This document shows, in pieces, positions 3 through 9,897 of a stretch of 11,707 nt of DNA (position 1 is its first letter; each line of letters begins with the position of its first letter). Below the pieces are notes generated by a model. That model was not told where the DNA came from and did not search any database. It saw nothing but the letters and a program-made list of their open reading frames with translations. Both the position numbers and the translations under genes were made by a program. Location: contig MHDQ01000095.1 of assembly GCA_001803565.1 (NCBI GenBank), forward strand, positions 1 through 11,707, in the 5' to 3' direction. This stretch comes from Nitrospinae bacterium RIFCSPLOWO2_12_FULL_45_22 (GTDB lineage: Bacteria; 2-12-FULL-45-22).

Positions 3-1631
3 CCGATAAACTATGCCTGTGCCTCTAATTATTCAGAGATGATTAACGAGGCTATAGCCCGAGAAAAGTTAAACCGGGTGGTATTGGCTGCCTGCTCCTG
101 TTGTTCCTCAGAACAAATCTGTTATAGCTGCACCCAGCCGAGGATCAGGTGCAAAGAAAACCTGTTCCAAAAAGGCCTATTGGATCAACGCCTCTTTGAA
201 TTTGTTAATATCAGGGAACAATGTGCCTGGATTCATCAGGCTGATAAAAGCCAGGCTACAGCTAAGGCTAAAGACTTGATAAAGATGGCAGTCTCGCGGG
301 CCCGCTGGTTAGAAGCGCCTCCCAAAGAGGAAATAAAGATAGAAAAGAAGGCAATAGTTATTGGTGGCGGGCCAGCCGGTATTCAATGCGCTATTGACTT
401 AGCAGAACAGGGTTTCCCGGTTACTTTAGTAGAAAAGGAACCTCAACTGGGTGGGAGGTTAAATCAATTAAATACCCCCTCCTTTTCCCATGAAGGGCAA
501 GGCCCTGCGGCTACATCAGGCAATCGTATAGAGCCTAAAGAATTGCTGAACCAGCTTATTGACCGGCTACAAAAACTCCCGGTGCAGATCATGACCAACA
601 CCGAGGTTAAAGGAGTAGAAGGGGGTTTAGGGAATTTTCTGATCTCTTTAAAACGGGAGAATAAGACCCCTAAGCTGACTGCCGGTGCTATTGTCCTGGC
701 CACCGGCGCAGATTTCTACCGGCCTAATGGCGAATATGGCTATGGTACCGCGTCCAATGTCATTACCAATAATGAGTTGACAGTGAAGTGGCCAGAGATA
801 TCCCCGGATAAGATAAAAAAGGTCACCTTTATCCAATGTGTAGGGTCTAACGGGCATATTGATAAGCGGGGCTGTTCGAAATACTGCTGTGAGACGGCCC
901 TCCAGCAGGCCCTTGGCCTGAAAGAAAAAGGTGTCGAGCCCACTATCCTCTATCAAGAATTGTATCTTAATAATGCTAAAGCCCAGGGCTTATTAAGGCA
1001 GGCCCAGGCAGCCGAGATCACCTTCATTCCTTATAATGGTACGAAACCACCCCAGATTAATTCTTCTAAAGGTGGTAATTCCCTTAGCATTAAATTGCCA
1101 GGCCGAAAAGGAAGGGCTATCTCAACTGATATGATTATTTTATCGGTGGGGATGGTAGCAAGAGAAGATTCAAAGGAGTTAGCCAAACTCCTACGGGTAC
1201 CTCAAGGCCAGGATGGCTTTTTTAAAGAAAAGGATCCTCTATTAGGACTGGTCGAGACTCAAGTCCCAGGAATATTCCTGGCCGGTAGCTGTCAGGGGCC
1301 TAAAGGCACCATTGATTCCATGATCCATGCCTCGGCCGCTGCTTCTAAAGCCGCTATATTGCTGGCAAGAGAAAAGATTTATCTGGACAGCTTGGTGAAC
1401 CGGCTTGATGAGGTAAAATGCCGGGCTTGCGGGACATGCGTTACCGTATGTGAGTTTGGTGCCCCCAGGATAATCTTATCTGCCCAGGGGAAGCCCGTGG
1501 CCAGAATAGACCCGGTACTCTGCCAGAGCTGCGGTACCTGTGCGGCATATTGTCCGTCGGGCGCTATAACTGCCCCTTGCTTCACCGATAAGCAGATAAA
1601 CAGTATGCTGGAATCCCTCTTGGCTTCCTGA
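3..1631 (+). CDS. HdrA-like FAD/iron-sulfur protein, 5' end outside window
   Basis: The frame is open from base 3 with no stop, and the residues before the first ATG (base 39) already align with the N-terminal domain of HdrA, so the gene starts upstream. A Cys-rich stretch (ACSCCSSEQIC, then CYSC and RC) replaces the [13 protein letters not shown] segment of ordinary HdrA. Next come FEFVNIREQCAWIH, a dinucleotide-binding motif (VIGGGPAGIQ, near bases 357-387) with VEKEPQLGGR, and a thioredoxin-reductase-like FAD fold. The C-terminus has two [4Fe-4S] motifs, CRACGTCVTVC and CQSCGTCAAYCP (about bases 1420-1555). The Cys/Sec loop (DCSxC) that follows the FAD motif in HdrA is absent, and unrelated residues encoded partly by a repeat stand there. 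It lacks the inserted ferredoxin domain of the larger HdrA downstream. Likely role: electron transfer between flavin and Fe-S partners in an Hdr/Qmo-like complex; partners are inferred from the neighbours. Confidence 0.85.
   Translation, partial: PINYACASNYSEMINEAIAREKLNRVVLAACSCCSSEQICYSCTQPRIRCKENLFQKGLLDQRLFEFVNIREQCAWIHQADKSQATAKAKDLIKMAVSRARWLEAPPKEEIKIEKKAIVIGGGPAGIQCAIDLAEQGFPVTLVEKEPQLGGRLNQLNTPSFSHEGQGPAATSGNRIEPKELLNQLIDRLQKLPVQIMTNTEVKGVEGGLGNFLISLKRENKTPKLTAGAIVLATGADFYRPNGEYGYGTASNVITNNELTVKWPEISPDKIKKVTFIQCVGSNGHIDKRGCSKYCCETALQQALGLKEKGVEPTILYQELYLNNAKAQGLLRQAQAAEITFIPYNGTKPPQINSSKGGNSLSIKLPGRKGRAISTDMIILSVGMVAREDSKELAKLLRVPQGQDGFFKEKDPLLGLVETQVPGIFLAGSCQGPKGTIDSMIHASAAASKAAILLAREKIYLDSLVNRLDEVKCRACGTCVTVCEFGAPRIILSAQGKPVARIDPVLCQSCGTCAAYCPSGAITAPCFTDKQINSMLESLLAS
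494..514 (-). repeat. REP-like palindrome inside the HdrA-like gene
   Basis: On the minus strand this reads GTAGCCGC followed by AGGGC-CTT-GCCCT, a GTAG tetranucleotide next to a short hairpin. The same layout occurs at 1689-1711, 2188-2210 and 6176-6241 between genes. Here it lies in frame in the coding sequence and encodes GQGPAA. The shared GTAG plus palindrome resembles REP elements mobilised by RAYT transposases, but no such transposase is in the window. Confidence 0.5.
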
Positions 1632-1759: not shown

Positions 1760-2158
1760 ATGGAGCGAGAAGGAAATTCTGAACCGAAGATAATAGTCTT
1801 TACCTGTAATTGGTCACCCTTTGCCCAGGCAAATATGGCTGGCGTGAAGAAGGTGGATCTGCCGCCCTTTTTCCGGATGGTGCGTCTGATGTGTCTAGGG
1901 AGAATACAGCCAGCCATGATCCTTAAGGCCTTCGAATTAGGTGCTGAGGGCGTTCTTGTCCTGGGTTGTGGCAAGGAGAATTGCCATTATGATTTTGGCA
2001 GCAAGAGAGGTGAAGAGCATTTTCAAACAGCGTCCAGGCTCTTGCATCTATTAGGTATTGACGAGAAGCGATTGAAATTGTGTCAAGATTTTAATGACAG
2101 CGCCAACATTTCCTTTGTTAAGGTAGTCGAAGACTTTGTCCAAGAATTAACTGCTTAG
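1760..2158 (+). CDS. mvhD: Free-standing MvhD-like [2Fe-2S] protein with one Cys lost
   Basis: This 132-residue protein matches the MvhD/HdrA-associated delta domain, which passes electrons between a dehydrogenase or hydrogenase and HdrA. Visible motifs are FTCNWSPF (C16), VRLMCLGR (C45) and LGCGKENCHY (C70, C75). The usual first motif is CNWCxY, and the fused copy downstream keeps it (CNWCSYA). Here serine 19 replaces the second cysteine, so cluster ligation may differ or the cluster may be weakened. An AAAAGGA ribosome-binding site precedes the ATG. The position after an HdrA-like gene and before an HdrD-type gene suggests one operon, although repeats separate the genes. Family assignment is firm; whether it still binds a cluster is open. 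Confidence 0.85.
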   Translation: MEREGNSEPKIIVFTCNWSPFAQANMAGVKKVDLPPFFRMVRLMCLGRIQPAMILKAFELGAEGVLVLGCGKENCHYDFGSKRGEEHFQTASRLLHLLGIDEKRLKLCQDFNDSANISFVKVVEDFVQELTA

Positions 2159-2322: not shown

Positions 2323-3465
2323 ATGGAAGATGTGAAGCGAGCCATTAAAACAAATAAAGTCTATTATTGTCTGGATTGCGGCAAATGTACTGCCGTCTGT
2401 CCGGTATCAAAAGTTAATCCCAGATTTTCTCCCCGGCTGACCGTACAGAATACTGTACTGGATCATGAAGAGAGGGTATTTAAGGATGAAAACCTGCTCT
2501 GGTCTTGCTTGAGCTGTCGGATGTGTAGTGAGCGGTGTCCGTCGGATGTGCATTTTGATTATTTTACAAGAGATTTAAGGATTATTGCGCAGAGGGATGG
2601 GGCTGAGAGCCCTTGTTCCCATAGCGGTGCCCTCCAATCTCTGATGCGGATAATGACTGCTCCACAATTAAGCCAGAACCGTTTAGAGTGGATTACACCA
2701 GATTTGCGAGTAGCAGAAAGCGGGGAGTATCTCTATTTTGTGGGTTGTCTGCCCCATTATCAGGAATTTTTTGGCTATCTGGGGCTGGATCTGCTGGCTA
2801 TTGCCCGGGGAACAATAAAAGCCCTTAATAGCCTGGGTATAAATCCTGTAGTGATGGCTGAGGAGAGGTGTTGTGGTCATGACCTGCTCTGGACCGGCGA
2901 GGTAGAATCTTTCAGGCGCCTGGCTGAGTATAATATTCAGCAGATAGCCAATACCGGTGCCAAGCAGATAATTACTGCCTGTGCAGAATGTTACCGGACG
3001 CTTAACGATGATTTTCCCCGCTATTTAGGCAAGAAAGATTATCAGGTCTGGCATCTGTCACAATTTTTGGCCGAAAAGTTCTCCCAGGACGGTTGGAAGC
3101 CCAAAAAGAGGGTTCAAGCTATCACTTACCATGACCCCTGTCGTCTGGGGAGGTTTTCGGGGGTCTTTGAAGAGCCGAGGCAGCTCCTCAACGCTATTCC
3201 TGGTATAGAGTTGAAAGAGATGCCCAGGAATCGCCACCGCTCATTGTGTTGCGGTACGGTAGCCTGGAATAATTGTAATTCTTTTTCTAAGATGATCCAG
3301 GCAGAGCGGCTCAAGGAAGCCAGGACCACCGGGGCAGAGCTATTAATAACTGCTTGCCCCAAATGCCAGATCCATTTCAAATGTGCCATGTTAAATCAGG
3401 GAATAGATGACGAACTGAAGATAGAGATGGAGGATTTAGCTGTCCTAGTAGCAGGCGCCCTCTAA
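2323..3465 (+). CDS. HdrD-type (HdrC-HdrB fused) iron-sulfur protein
   Basis: This 380-residue protein joins a HdrC-like ferredoxin domain to a HdrB-like domain. The N-terminus carries two [4Fe-4S] motifs, C16xxC19xxC22xxxC26P and C62xxC65xxC68xxxC72P. The C-terminal part has two CCG domains: C142, CC183-184 and C220xxC223, then C273, CC309-310 and C345xxC348. In HdrB the CCG cysteines hold non-cubane [4Fe-4S] clusters that reduce a disulfide. Here the true substrate is unknown, since bacteria with HdrABC-like enzymes generally lack the CoM/CoB heterodisulfide. No membrane segment is apparent, so a soluble partner of the flanking HdrA proteins is more likely than a membrane HdrDE enzyme. The ATG has a weak GAAAGG upstream. 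A GlpC- or lactate-oxidase-type Fe-S subunit is a less likely alternative, given the neighbours. Confidence 0.85.
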   Translation: MEDVKRAIKTNKVYYCLDCGKCTAVCPVSKVNPRFSPRLTVQNTVLDHEERVFKDENLLWSCLSCRMCSERCPSDVHFDYFTRDLRIIAQRDGAESPCSHSGALQSLMRIMTAPQLSQNRLEWITPDLRVAESGEYLYFVGCLPHYQEFFGYLGLDLLAIARGTIKALNSLGINPVVMAEERCCGHDLLWTGEVESFRRLAEYNIQQIANTGAKQIITACAECYRTLNDDFPRYLGKKDYQVWHLSQFLAEKFSQDGWKPKKRVQAITYHDPCRLGRFSGVFEEPRQLLNAIPGIELKEMPRNRHRSLCCGTVAWNNCNSFSKMIQAERLKEARTTGAELLITACPKCQIHFKCAMLNQGIDDELKIEMEDLAVLVAGAL

Positions 3466-3578: not shown

Positions 3579-3620
3579 GCATTTTGCATTGAAACAGAAA
3601 CTTTAAGGAGGTATAAAGCG

Positions 3621-6062
3621 GTGTCAAAGAATGATTTGAGGATGGGGGTTTTTGTCTGCGAATGCGGGCTGAATATTGCTGGTACCGTAGATTGCAAGGC
3701 AGTCTCAGAGTATGCCAGGACCTTACCCGATGTAGTAGCTGTTATCCAGAATAAGTATACCTGTGCTGATCCCGGGCAGAATGAGATAAAGAAGGCTATC
3801 GCTGAACATAACCTGAACCGGGTGGTAGTAGCCTCCTGCACGCCCAAGATCCATGAACCTACTTTTAGGCAATGTGTGGCTGAAGCCGGGTTAAACCCTT
3901 ATCTCTTTGAGATGGTCAATATCAGAGAGCATTGTAGTTGGGTTCACCAGAACCAAAAGGATAGAGCTACTGAAAAGGCCAAAGATTTAGTAAGAAGCGG
4001 CGTCGCCCGGGCCCGGTACCTGGAGACCCAGGACGAAGCTGAAGTCAAGGTTACTAAATCTGCCCTGGTTATCGGTGGTGGGATAGCAGGAATCCAAGCA
4101 GCCTTAGACCTGGCCGATGGTGGCCATAAGGTATATCTGGTCGAGAAAGAACCGAGCATTGGCGGTATTATGGCTCAAATAGATAAAACCTATCCTACTA
4201 TGGACTGCTCCATATGAATTCTCGGCCCCAAGATGATGGATGTCGGTCGACATCCCAACATTGAGTTGCTGGTCTATAGCGAGGTAGAAGATGTCAGCGG
4301 ATATATAGGTAACTTCAAGGTAAAGGTAAGAAAGAAGGCCCGCTATGTAGGTGAGAAGGAATGCACCGCTTGTGGCGAGTGTGCCAAAATATGTCCGGTA
4401 GTAAAACCGGATGAGTATCAGATGGGTCTCTCTTCCCGCAAGGCCATATATATGCCCTTCCCGCAAGCTGTCCCATCGGCTTATATCCTCAATATGGCAG
4501 ATTGTTTGGGTAATAATCCGATTGCCTGCGGAAAATGCCTGGAGAAGTGCGAAAAGAAATGTATTGATTACGATATACAGGACCAGATCCTGGAGCTAGA
4601 AATAGGAACCATCATTGCTGCTACCGGCATGGATGTCTATGATCCTACTGAACTGGATGAATACGGATATACCAGATATGAAAATGTTATCACCAGTATG
4701 GAATTTGAGCGCCTGATCTGTGCTGGTGGCCCAACCGAGGGGCATTTTGTAAGACCTACGGACTGGAAGACCCCTAAGAGTGTTGCCTTTATCCAGTGTG
4801 TCGGTTCTCGCTCAGAAAAGCGCGGTGCACCCTATTGCAGCAATATCTGTTGTATGAACACCATCAAGGATACTCTCCTTCTGGCAGATCACTACCCGGG
4901 TATGCAGTGCAAGGTGTTCTATATGGATATCAGGGCCTTTGGCAAGGGTTTTGAAGACCTATACAAACGGAGTAAGGAGGAAGGGGTCCAGTATATAAGG
5001 GGTCTGCCGGGTGAGATTGAAGAAGACCCGGTGACCAAGAACCTTATTTTAAGGGCAGAGAATACTACTACTCGTGAGATAGAAACCCATGAAGTAGAGA
5101 TGGTAGTCCTGTCGGTTGGGGTATTGCCCAGGAGGGATGGCGATGTGGTGCAAAAATTACTTACCCTCTCCCGTACCTCTGATGGCTTCTTCCTGGAGGC
5201 GCATCCGAAACTGAAACCGGTAGATGCCCCCACCCGTGGCGTATTTTTCGCCGGATGTACAGAATATCCCAAAGATGTGAAGGATAGTGTCACGCAAGCA
5301 GGTGCTGCAGCGGCCCGGGCCAGCATCATCCTTAACGCGGGCAAAGTGAAGATCGAGGCCATAACCTCCAGGCTCATTAAAGAGAAGTGTACCTTCTGTG
5401 GCCTCTGTGCCAAAGTATGCCCCTACCATGCCATTACCGCGGCAGATAGGAAGAATAAGGTCTATCCCATGGTGATAGAGGCTGCCTGTGCGGGCTGTGG
5501 TGCCTGTGCAGCCGAATGCCCGGTAGATGCTATTAAGATGCGACACTTTACTGATGAGCAGATCATGTCCCAGGTTGAGGCCTTATTAGAGAAAGACAGC
5601 CAGGAGGCTATTGTCTGCTTTGCCTGCAACTGGTGCTCTTATGCCGGGGGAGATATGGCTGGGACCTCTCGGCTCCAATATCCACCCAATGTCCGCTTAA
5701 TTCGGACAATGTGCAGTGGCCGGGTAGATAAGAAGTTTGTCTTGCAGGCCTTCAAACTAGGTGCCCCGCTGGTATTGGTCTCTGGCTGCCATTTTGCTGA
5801 CTGTCATTATATCAGTGCCGTGCACTGGACCCAGAGACGGGTAGAGAGGCTATGGGATACCCTGGAGCAAAAGGGTATCCGGCCAGAAAGGCTGCAACTG
5901 GAGTGGATAAGTGCCGCTGAGGGACAGAAGTTTGCCAAGGTGATGCGAGGACTGGAGGAGATGCTCAAGGCCGTTACCCGAGAAGAGATTGAGTATACCA
6001 TGAAGGTCCTGGGTGACGCCAAGGAAGTCACGCCAGAGCCAAGCCTTGTAGCCGTATCATAA
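3621..6062 (+). CDS. hdrA: Selenocysteine-containing HdrA-MvhD fusion
   Basis: Reading UGA at 4215-4217 as selenocysteine gives one 813-residue protein. GTG at 3621 is chosen because AAGGAGG lies nine bases upstream and family similarity starts there ([17 protein letters not shown]). Order of domains: N-terminal domain ending [17 protein letters not shown] site GGGIAG (about 151-156); the loop DC196-S-I-U199; an inserted ferredoxin with Cys 248, 251, 254, 258 and 295, 303, 306, 310; the second half of the FAD fold; a C-terminal ferredoxin with Cys 590, 593, 596, 600 and 623, 626, 629, 633; and a fused MvhD domain from about 660 (FAC-NWC at 669/672, [16 protein letters not shown]). HdrA is the flavin that splits electron pairs in bifurcating Hdr complexes; MvhD takes electrons from the dehydrogenase partner. 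UGA serves as a stop in neighbouring genes, so general recoding is unlikely. Confidence 0.9.
4215..4255 (+). promoter_or_regulatory. In-frame UGA (Sec) codon and candidate bacterial SECIS hairpin
   Basis: UGA (4215-4217) is followed after 20 bases by a perfect 7-bp stem, GGATGTC (4238-4244) with GACATCC (4249-4255), and a four-base loop GGTC (4245-4248). Bacterial SECIS elements lie just downstream of the UGA, inside the coding sequence, and have a short stem with a G-U in the apical loop; E. coli fdhF also shows GGUC there. The 27 bases from UGA to loop are somewhat longer than in fdhF but, as I recall, within the reported bacterial range. The UGA aligns with the conserved second Cys/Sec of the DCSxC loop in HdrA. 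Confidence 0.88.
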
Positions 6063-6902: not shown

Positions 6903-6909
6903 GTTGGGT
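6903..6909 (+). other. attI-like core site, 5' edge of cassette 1
   Basis: GTTGGGT fits the integron core consensus GTTRRRY and lies 18 bases before the endonuclease start. It is the exact reverse complement of the R'' box ACCCAAC of the attC that closes this cassette (8772-8778), which supports it as the attI/cassette junction. Confidence 0.75.
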
Positions 6910-6927
6910 GAGAGAGAAGGAGACACT

Positions 6928-7857
6928 ATGCCGAAGTTGACGAAGACAGCACAACGGGAAGCGAAGACGGCTTTCTCACAAGGCCTCCACGCCTTCGTTC
7001 AGAAGATGCGGGAGTACGTGAGCGCCGAGGATGGTGAATGGACGGTCAAAGGGTTCATCGACATCTATCGGAACATATACACCATCAGTTCCGACACGAA
7101 GATCGTCTCAAAGATCCTCGAAATCCATCTCTTCCCACAAATCCTTCAGTTTGCCCAAGAACAGGGCTACTCCATCGTCCTTGCTGAACACCAGAACTGG
7201 TATCCAGATCTGAGCTTTGTGTGTCTGGCCGATCAGCGCATCAAGTTTGCCGTGGACCTGAAGACCACTTACCGTGACCCTGACTGCCCCGGTCACGTGA
7301 ACGGATTCACTCTTGGCAGTCACGGGGCATATTTCAAGGACCGAACGTCGACAAAGAATATCCAGTTTCCTTACGACGAATACTCTGGCCACTTCTGTCT
7401 CGGGATCATCTACACCCGAGCTGATGCCAGGGACGTTGACGGGACAGAGATCATCAACGTCAAGGAACTCGACGAGGAAACGGAGCATCCTCTCCGCATC
7501 GGGCACAGAGAAGTCACCACCGTAGACAGTTTGCGCTCCATCGCCTCGGTAATCAAAGATTTCCAATTCTTCGTCTGCGAGAAGTGGCAACTCGCGAGCG
7601 ATCGCCAGGGCTCAGGTAATACTGCCAACATCGGCTCAATCACGGCCATTGACGACATCTTGAGGGGAAACAGCATCTTCGCCAAACTCGGAGAAGACTG
7701 GTTTGACGAGTACTGGATGAACTACGGCGTAACCACGATGAAGAAAGGCCGGAAGACAATCCCAATAAAAAGACTGGAGGACTTCATCGCCTTCAAACGC
7801 GGTGACAAGGACCTCATCGTTCCTGTCGCGACGAAACGGAAAAGGAAGGAAGACTGA
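6928..7857 (+). CDS. EcoRV-like type II restriction endonuclease
   Basis: This 309-residue protein aligns along its length with EcoRV (245 residues), which cuts GATATC to blunt ends. Shared blocks include SSDTK, a catalytic core NWYPD (D94) with AVDLKTTY (D110, K112) corresponding to EcoRV D74/D90/K92, E65 like E45, GFTLG, TKNIQFPYDEY and YTRA. The recognition-loop block GSGNTANIGSI closely matches EcoRV GSGNTTNIGSI, so GATATC specificity is likely. The ATG at 6928 is chosen over an in-frame TTG at 6904 because AGAAGGAGA precedes it and the TTG lies within the attI-like core. Extra length is mainly an N-terminal extension and a basic C-terminal tail. TGATG joins it to the methyltransferase by one base. 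No controller (C) gene is seen. It is the first gene of integron cassette 1, under the candidate Pc. Confidence 0.93.
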   Translation: MPKLTKTAQREAKTAFSQGLHAFVQKMREYVSAEDGEWTVKGFIDIYRNIYTISSDTKIVSKILEIHLFPQILQFAQEQGYSIVLAEHQNWYPDLSFVCLADQRIKFAVDLKTTYRDPDCPGHVNGFTLGSHGAYFKDRTSTKNIQFPYDEYSGHFCLGIIYTRADARDVDGTEIINVKELDEETEHPLRIGHREVTTVDSLRSIASVIKDFQFFVCEKWQLASDRQGSGNTANIGSITAIDDILRGNSIFAKLGEDWFDEYWMNYGVTTMKKGRKTIPIKRLEDFIAFKRGDKDLIVPVATKRKRKED

Positions 7858-8801
7858 TGCGGGTTGTTGTGCCCCCAATCAAGAGCCAGGGGATCAAGAC
7901 AAAACTCGTGCCATGGATACAAGCACTCGTTCCCGATGTTTCTGGGCACTGGATCGAGCCTTTCTTGGGTACGGGTGTAGTTGCGTTCAATTCAGGGTTT
8001 CAGCGCGCTCTCCTGAGTGACACGAATCCGCATGTGATCCGGTTCTATCAGCAAGTCCAACAGGGAGTCATCCGAGCTTCTCGCGTAAGGGCGTATCTTC
8101 AGGAAGAGGGGAAACGCCTTCAGTGCGCTCGGAATAGTGGATACGATCATTTCAATCTCATCAGGGATCGCTTCAACAGAGATCATGATCCTCTTGATTT
8201 TCTCTTCCTTTCCAGGGCAGGTTTCAATGGGATGATGCGTTTCAATAGGAGGGGCGAATGGAACATCCCCTTCTGCAAGAAGCCGCAGCGTTTCAGTCGA
8301 TCCTACATTACGAAAATCGTCAATCAAGTACACGATGCCGCGTGTCTGATACAGCCCGAGTGGGAGTTTCGGGTCGCTCCGTTTCAAGAGATCATCCCCC
8401 AGGCGACCTCTAGTGACATCATCTACTGTGATCCACCATATGCAGGTCGGTATGTTGATTACTATAATGGCTGGACAGACGAGGACGAGCAGAGGTTATT
8501 TGAGTTGCTCTCATCAACACCGGCAAAGTTCATACTTTCGACATGGCACCATAACGATTATAGACATAACGATATGGTGGAACGTTACTGGAGAAGATTC
8601 AACATCGTTACCCGGGATCACTTCTATCATTCTGGAGCAAAGATCGAGAACAGAAATACCATTGTGGAGGCGCTTGTTTTCAACTTTGATGCCAATATCG
8701 AGGAGCATAACCACGGCGTGAGGCCCAAGCCCGAACAGCTGATGCTTTTCGAAGAGAGAGCAGAATACATGACCCAACAATTGGGTCGAGCGGACGTGTG
8801 A
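7857..8801 (+). CDS. EcoRV-like adenine-N6 DNA methyltransferase (Dam/D12 class)
   Basis: This 314-residue protein closely resembles M.EcoRV (298 residues), which methylates adenine in GATATC and protects host DNA from the cognate nuclease. The start VVPPIKSQGIKTKLVPWI holds motif X. EPFLGTGVVAFNS (about 34-46) is the AdoMet motif I, DTNP follows, and DPPY (192-195) is the catalytic motif IV. LDFLFLSRAGFNGMMRFN and STWHHNDYR are family blocks. The start ATG overlaps the stop of the endonuclease gene, so translation is probably coupled. The last nine codons before the stop (about residues 306-314) lie inside the attC site, so the C-terminal tail is partly recombination-site sequence. Confidence 0.93.
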   Translation: MRVVVPPIKSQGIKTKLVPWIQALVPDVSGHWIEPFLGTGVVAFNSGFQRALLSDTNPHVIRFYQQVQQGVIRASRVRAYLQEEGKRLQCARNSGYDHFNLIRDRFNRDHDPLDFLFLSRAGFNGMMRFNRRGEWNIPFCKKPQRFSRSYITKIVNQVHDAACLIQPEWEFRVAPFQEIIPQATSSDIIYCDPPYAGRYVDYYNGWTDEDEQRLFELLSSTPAKFILSTWHHNDYRHNDMVERYWRRFNIVTRDHFYHSGAKIENRNTIVEALVFNFDANIEEHNHGVRPKPEQLMLFEERAEYMTQQLGRADV

Positions 8802-8869: not shown

Positions 8870-9100
8870 ATGTCTTTACAACTGCAAGAAGTAGTGAACA
8901 AAGCCCTTAATCTGTCTCCCGAGGAACGCGCAGAATTAGCACATGAACTGATTCTAAGCCTGGATGATACCAGAGACAAGGAAGTTGAAACGGCTTGGGA
9001 TGCAGAGATTGAAAGTCGTGTAAGGGAAATTAAAAGCGGCAAGGCGAAAGGCAGACCGGCAGAGGATATACTTGCAGAGATACGAGCCAAATATTCATGA
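8870..9100 (+). CDS. RelB-like antitoxin (addiction-module component)
   Basis: This 76-residue acidic protein begins SLQLQEVVNKALNLSPEERAELAHELILSLD. That helical start is typical of the putative addiction-module component family (TIGR02574 type), which pairs with ParE/RelE toxins. The C-terminal half, with WDAEIESRVREIKSGKAKGRPAED and then LAEIRAK, is the expected toxin-wrapping segment. AAAGGAGG (8856-8863) lies six bases before the ATG and only a few bases past the attC core, so the cassette brings its own translation start. Its TGA overlaps the toxin ATG by four bases (ATGA). Confidence 0.85.
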   Translation: MSLQLQEVVNKALNLSPEERAELAHELILSLDDTRDKEVETAWDAEIESRVREIKSGKAKGRPAEDILAEIRAKYS

Positions 9101-9402
9101 AACACATCATTGTTCACAGTGAAGCAGAATTGGAATTGTGGCAAGCGGTAGAGTACTACGAAGCCAAACGCGTTGGATTAGGGCTGAATCTTGAGCAAGA
9201 GGTAAGCCACGCCCTTGCCGATATTCAGGAAGCACCCGACAGGTGGCCTAAAAGAAGCTATGGAACGATATGTCGTTTGCTCCGTCGATTTCCATATGCT
9301 ATCTACTATTTGGAAGTTCAAGATGTTACCTGGGTAGTAGCTGTAGCACACACCAGCCGTAGGCCTTACTATTGGCGTAACCGCATGAAAAGCAACATAT
9401 AA
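9097..9402 (+). CDS. ParE/RelE-family toxin
   Basis: This 101-residue protein has the ParE/RelE plasmid-stabilisation pattern: an N-terminal helix pair (AEAELELWQAVEYYEAKR-like, GLGLNLEQEV), then RLLRRFPYAIYYLEV, then the closing block VVAVAHTSRRPYYWRNR. ParE members poison DNA gyrase and RelE members cleave mRNA on ribosomes; sequence alone does not say which applies here. It is translated from the ATGA overlap with the antitoxin gene. The TAA stop falls just before the attC R'' box. The pair forms integron cassette 2 and is likely to stabilise the array. Confidence 0.85.
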   Translation: MKHIIVHSEAELELWQAVEYYEAKRVGLGLNLEQEVSHALADIQEAPDRWPKRSYGTICRLLRRFPYAIYYLEVQDVTWVVAVAHTSRRPYYWRNRMKSNI

Positions 9403-9627: not shown

Positions 9628-9897
9628 ATGAAATTTGAATGGGACAGGAACAAAGAGAAGCTGAACATTAAAAAGCATACAATTTCTTTTGACGAAGCCG
9701 TCACCGTGTTCTATGATCCTTTATCGGCAACATTCGCTGATCCGGACCACTCCATTGAAGAGGATAGGTTAGTCACTATAGGCTATTCATCTCAGGGACG
9801 TCTGTTTGTTGTATCGCACACGGAAAGAGGGGATGCGATACGGATTATCAGTGCACGCCCTGCAACCGTATCGGAGAGGAAAAGACATGAAAACTAA
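9628..9897 (+). CDS. brnT: BrnT-family toxin
   Basis: This 89-residue protein starts MKFEWDRNKEKLNIKKHTISFDEA and continues with PLSATFADPDHS. It then has RLVTIGYSSQGRLFVVSHTERG and closes with IRIISARPATVSERKRHE. These are the hallmarks of BrnT, a RelE-fold ribonuclease toxin that slows translation. AGGA lies just upstream of the ATG. The end overlaps the antitoxin gene by 11 bases, and toxin before antitoxin is the usual BrnTA order. It is the main gene of integron cassette 3. Confidence 0.92.
   Translation: MKFEWDRNKEKLNIKKHTISFDEAVTVFYDPLSATFADPDHSIEEDRLVTIGYSSQGRLFVVSHTERGDAIRIISARPATVSERKRHEN

Follow-up and report, generated by a model that had tools for sequence, protein, structure and literature searches.

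Genes at the locus

To examine how a UGA that interrupts a heterodisulfide reductase gene is read, we analyzed a window of 11,707 nucleotides on contig C95 (MHDQ01000095.1) from the metagenome-assembled genome of the anaerobe Nitrospinae bacterium RIFCSPLOWO2_12_FULL_45_22. The gene and the features around it are listed in Table 1. Translation showed that the UGA is the sole internal stop of its frame and lies in phase with both the GTG start (3621) and the TAA stop (6060-6062). When the UGA is read through, the protein scores 1202.2 bits against the HdrA2 family NF040770 (cut-off 1100; residues 7-790). It matches the HdrA chain of a solved complex (PDB chain 5odc_A) at 824 bits over residues 6-656, and the MvhD chain of the same complex (5odc_D) matches the C-terminal residues 662-785. 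The FlpD/MvhD domain shares its frame with HdrA, and the gene product joins an HdrA2-type heterodisulfide reductase subunit to MvhD.

The UGA stands in place of the second cysteine of a CxxC motif, in the context DCSI-U-ILGPK, and residue 199, which it specifies, aligns to C197 of 5odc_A without a gap. A preliminary description of this DNA had correctly placed the UGA within the DCSxC motif but assigned it to the second position, whereas it occupies that of the second cysteine, the fifth residue of the motif. The same description held that coding similarity continues unshifted on both flanks of the UGA, and this agrees with our comparisons: homologues align through the site without a frameshift, no stop interrupts the 614 codons after it, and identity with the best relatives across the site amounts to 66-79%.

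Table 1. Features of the hdrA-mvhD locus, in window coordinates.
Feature	Position	Strand	Evidence
HdrA module with neither Cys nor Sec at position 197; truncated by the contig start; ends with UGA	3-1631	+	ORF list, profile search, alignment
Stand-alone MvhD; CNWS against CNWC in the fusion, one motif Cys missing	1760-2158	+	ORF list, domain search
HdrCB/HdrD-like protein, GlpC-like (Fer4 and two CCG domains)	2323-3465	+	Profile/domain search; same place in L023
Shine-Dalgarno-like AAGGAGG, 9 nt 5' of the GTG	3605-3611	+	Read from sequence
hdrA-mvhD fusion of HdrA2 type; 813 residues, one of them a predicted Sec; GTG start, TAA stop	3621-6062	+	Translation with TGA=U; NF040770 score; FlpD/MvhD domain
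CxxU motif, first Cys (C196)	4206-4208	+	Sequence
In-frame UGA, very probably read as Sec199	4215-4217	+	Translation; 35 UGA and 33 Cys homologues; aligned to 5odc_A position 197
Predicted bacterial SECIS hairpin GGATGTC-GGTC-GACATCC: 7-bp stem 4238-4244/4249-4255, loop GGUC 4245-4248	4238-4255	+	Folding; conserved in relatives
MvhD (FlpD) domain, PF02662, residues 664-784, own CNWC motif with Cys	5610-5972	+	Domain search

Upstream of the fusion lie further genes of heterodisulfide reductase type, among them an HdrB/HdrC partner in the form of the HdrCB/HdrD-like gene. The order hdrA-hdrA, mvhD, hdrCB-like, hdrA-mvhD is identical in the relative L023. In relatives, the truncated HdrA module at the contig start corresponds to the second half of an HdrA-HdrA fusion protein, the first half of which has another Sec; in L023 this first half carries its own UGA followed by the same hairpin. 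Since contig C95 starts inside such an HdrA-HdrA gene, we predict another Sec upstream of the sequenced part.

In addition, we observed a near-palindromic repeat, TGAAGGGCAAGGCCCTGCGGCT, at 491-512 and 2217-2238 (copies 91% alike). The first copy lies within the upstream HdrA frame, near the place of the missing Cys197, and the second is intergenic; the element resembles a dispersed repeat inserted in frame into coding sequence. Downstream of the fusion, a gene for an EcoRV-type restriction endonuclease (PF09233, E 2.7e-110) adjoins one for a Dam-family adenine methyltransferase (together 6904-8801), and toxin-antitoxin-like genes follow the methyltransferase at 8870-9402 and 9628-9897.

Sites homologous to the UGA and the hairpin behind it

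We collected homologous sites from relatives in a contig collection (genome_contigs) and in 40 genomes nearest to this one, and found 68 distinct sites that can be aligned with residue 199; this count left out motif-less HdrA modules, that is, the second halves of fused HdrA-HdrA proteins. TGA occupies 35 of these sites and TGT or TGC the other 33, and none of the 68 carries TAA or TAG. The alignment thus bears out the claim that HdrA carries either cysteine or, in some lineages, a UGA-encoded residue at this place. The UGA forms are spread over many phyla, including Planctomycetota, Zixiibacteriota, Chloroflexota, Acidobacteriota, WOR-3, Gemmatimonadota, deltaproteobacterial groups, KSB1, and Marinimicrobia. 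In a tree built from 65 of the sites, the Sec/Cys label changes at least five times, and one Cys form (L035), which lies inside the Sec clade, is without the hairpin described below.

A 7-bp hairpin with a GGUC loop had been noticed 20 bases after the UGA, and we located it at exactly this distance, its loop beginning 27 nt past the UGA. Published rules for bacterial SECIS elements ask for a loop of 3-9 nt with a G within its first two positions, a stem of 4-16 bp, a distance of 16-37 nt from the UGA, and a folding energy of -7.5 kcal/mol or lower (PMC13188914). With its GGUC loop, 7 bp, 27 nt, and -10.2 kcal/mol, the hairpin falls within these bounds. In this sequence alone, however, it is weak evidence and not clearly above chance. 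A 60-nt fold of the region gave z = +0.50, which is not significant, and we therefore did not accept the hairpin on single-sequence folding; a 32-nt fold gave z = -1.74. Moreover, the peptide DVGRHP itself favours such a stem: when the codons were randomised synonymously, 21% of the recoded sequences had a stem of at least 7 bp at the same place, and a comparative test was thus needed. An Rfam scan of the window returned no matches, which says nothing for or against a SECIS element.

The comparison with relatives gave a different picture. Of the 35 UGA genes, 34 retain the GGUC hairpin, whereas all 33 Cys genes lack it at this place; the remaining UGA gene (L026) has a variant 7-bp stem with a six-base loop that starts with G. 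From each gene's own codon use, the stem would be expected to be retained in 2.6 of the 34. The codons of the 34 genes read either GAT-GTC-GGT-CGA-CAT (17) or GAT-GCC-GGT-CGG-CAT (17). Whenever the 5' arm switches between valine and alanine, the third base of the arginine codon in the 3' arm switches with it and keeps the pairing. All 17 genes with GTC have CGA and all 17 with GCC have CGG, with zero exceptions (Fisher p = 9e-10, uncorrected for relatedness). The Val/Ala position changed at least five times on the tree; four independent changes fall on well-supported branches and all are concordant, four pairs being too few for significance in a sign test. It is this conservation and covariation among relatives that makes the hairpin significant, and we consider the comparative evidence decisive for its assignment as a predicted SECIS element. 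The comparison thereby provides a covariation-supported candidate SECIS for the Sec-HdrA family.

Decoding of the UGA

Decoding as selenocysteine further depends on the genome. In bacteria, SelB bound to a hairpin downstream of the UGA brings the selenocysteine tRNA to this codon. Searched family by family, the assembly (3.67 Mb, 321 contigs, 85% complete) contains each of selA, selB, selC, and selD, the genes whose presence the preliminary description had proposed to check. SelA (524 bits) is encoded on contig C264, where selA is adjoined by a full-length selB (372 bits, above cut-off), and the tRNA-Sec has the anticodon TCA (75.3 bits, above cut-off). SelD (401 bits; contig C19, L018:1372-2457, minus strand) has an in-frame UGA of its own at GGG-U-ACKL, the usual Sec site of this protein, so that the genome holds at least one other selenoprotein gene. 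The four genes lie on other contigs than hdrA-mvhD, and binning errors are possible in a metagenome-assembled genome. Among 12 relatives, selA as a marker did not discriminate genomes with Sec-HdrA from those with Cys-HdrA, because most Cys-HdrA genomes have selA too.

We also observed a second, truncated gene for a SelB-like GTPase on contig C215 (L003:63-803, minus strand). Its reading frame runs on into a stretch rich in proline and glycine, PPPPFSPSVRGTGGG, which resembles another inserted repeat, and the gene may be a broken second selB.

From the selenocysteine machinery, the hairpin, and the comparative evidence, we infer that the UGA at 4215-4217 is decoded as selenocysteine and that hdrA-mvhD is an intact bacterial selenoprotein gene, with a probability of roughly 0.96; this is the reading that had been proposed from the DNA alone. 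SelB, carrying Sec-tRNA(UCA), would bind the GGUC-loop hairpin just 3' of the UGA and thereby insert selenocysteine. We weighed this against three other explanations. One is that the UGA marks a pseudogene or a sequencing error in which a cysteine codon became TGA. A single base change suffices to turn TGT or TGC into TGA, and the fragmentation of the assembly also speaks for this explanation. Nevertheless, we rejected it as very improbable, since 34 further distinct genes, drawn from many phyla, have the identical codon at the corresponding position. The open frame downstream, the high identity of relatives across the site, and the retention of the hairpin with compensating changes likewise speak against decay or error.

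It is even less credible that the locus encodes two proteins, a 198-residue N-terminal piece ending at the UGA and a 609-residue piece starting from the ATG at 4233. Open reading frames ending at 4217 and spanning 4233-6062 do exist mechanically, and partial read-through could possibly leave some truncated product, but the ATG lies within a conserved motif that is continuous in the solved HdrA, and homologues with cysteine are unbroken here. The frame would also be open if UGA encoded a standard amino acid throughout the genome, an explanation to which we give almost no credence. We rejected such a reassignment because four of the window's genes end with UGA, namely the HdrA module upstream of the fusion (at 1631), the endonuclease (7855-7857), the methyltransferase (8799-8801), and the antitoxin (9098-9100). 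The last three had already been cited as signs that UGA is not generally recoded, and they stand. A variant code is also at odds with a full selenocysteine system that includes tRNA-Sec(TCA), and with the cysteine found as the aligned residue in homologues. Annotation that ignores recoding would lose this central enzyme of energy metabolism, and in a published survey Sec-HdrA was found to be misannotated as partial genes in Methanocaldococcus (PMC12054007).

Relation to known HdrA proteins and possible role of Sec199

Both Sec-HdrA with a CxxU motif and HdrA-MvhD fusions are already known, the selenoprotein family for two decades: bacterial and archaeal Sec-HdrA had been described by 2006 (PMC1794560), and a 2026 review lists HdrA as a CxxU selenoprotein under NF040770 (PMC13188914). 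The Sec-HdrA proteins of Syntrophobacter, Syntrophus, Carboxydothermus, Moorella, and Methanocaldococcus belong to this same family and have the same CxxU site. As here, known Sec-HdrA genes are clustered with GlpC-like and FrhD/MvhD genes and occur in operons with hdrA-hdrA (PMC1794560, PMC13188914), including the hdrA-hdrA arrangements with GlpC- and FrhD-type genes of Deltaproteobacteria (PMC1794560). In contrast to these, MvhD is fused C-terminally in our gene, and the part of the cluster within the window holds no hydrogenase subunit genes. Desulfobacterium autotrophicum HRM2, with the selenoproteins HdrA1, HdrA2, and HdrL, resembles the present genome in having a Sec-HdrA that adjoins MvhD and a full set of selA-D; its Sec-HdrL adjoins MvhD as well, but MvhD is a separate protein there (PMC2702500). 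Fused HdrA-MvhD has been reported for Methanosarcina and Archaeoglobus (PMC2702500). The MvhADG-HdrABC complex (PDB 5ODC) differs in both respects, as its chain sequence has cysteine instead of selenocysteine and its MvhD is a separate chain. Our analysis adds a well-documented case of Sec-HdrA for a lineage with few sequenced relatives.

According to a secondary account of the structure, Cys197 of the solved HdrA lies in the thioredoxin-reductase domain and ligates the N-terminal [4Fe-4S] cluster of the partner HdrA (PMC9012536). Because Sec199 aligns with this cysteine, it would probably bind, as a selenolate, the [4Fe-4S] cluster of the partner across the HdrA dimer. Such a cluster would serve a flavin-based electron-bifurcating Hdr complex together with the neighbouring HdrA, MvhD, and HdrCB-like proteins, and the dimer partner would be either a second fusion protein or the HdrA module encoded next to it. 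More tentatively, the two dissimilar HdrA copies might form a heterodimer in which Sec199 reaches across the interface to complete the [4Fe-4S] cluster of the neighbouring module that lacks Cys197, and selenium would then tune the path of electrons between them. It is rather unlikely that residue 199 is selenocysteine but forms part of a redox-active CxxU pair instead of binding a cluster. The motif does resemble that of thioredoxin-like selenoproteins, and HdrA is listed as CxxU in the review (PMC13188914), yet the ligation reported for the aligned Cys197 argues against such a pair (PMC9012536). The assignment of Sec199 as a cluster ligand raises a testable question, namely whether a natural selenocysteine can ligate an iron-sulfur cluster across a subunit interface.

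A similar division between HdrA copies has been described in ANME archaea, where tandem or fused HdrA are complementary in the presence of Cys197 (PMC9012536), much like the upstream module and the fusion in the window, from which the residue is absent and in which it is present, respectively. The present case differs from the archaeal one in being bacterial, in having selenocysteine as the predicted residue, and in the C-terminal ferredoxin domains found in both copies. Elsewhere in the genome, contig C301 (L098:1501-3444) encodes an HdrA-like protein without the Cys197 motif, in which an NAD(P)-binding oxidoreductase module is inserted after the ferredoxin domain, a layout similar to the NfnB-like insertion of ANME-1 HdrA (PMC9012536).
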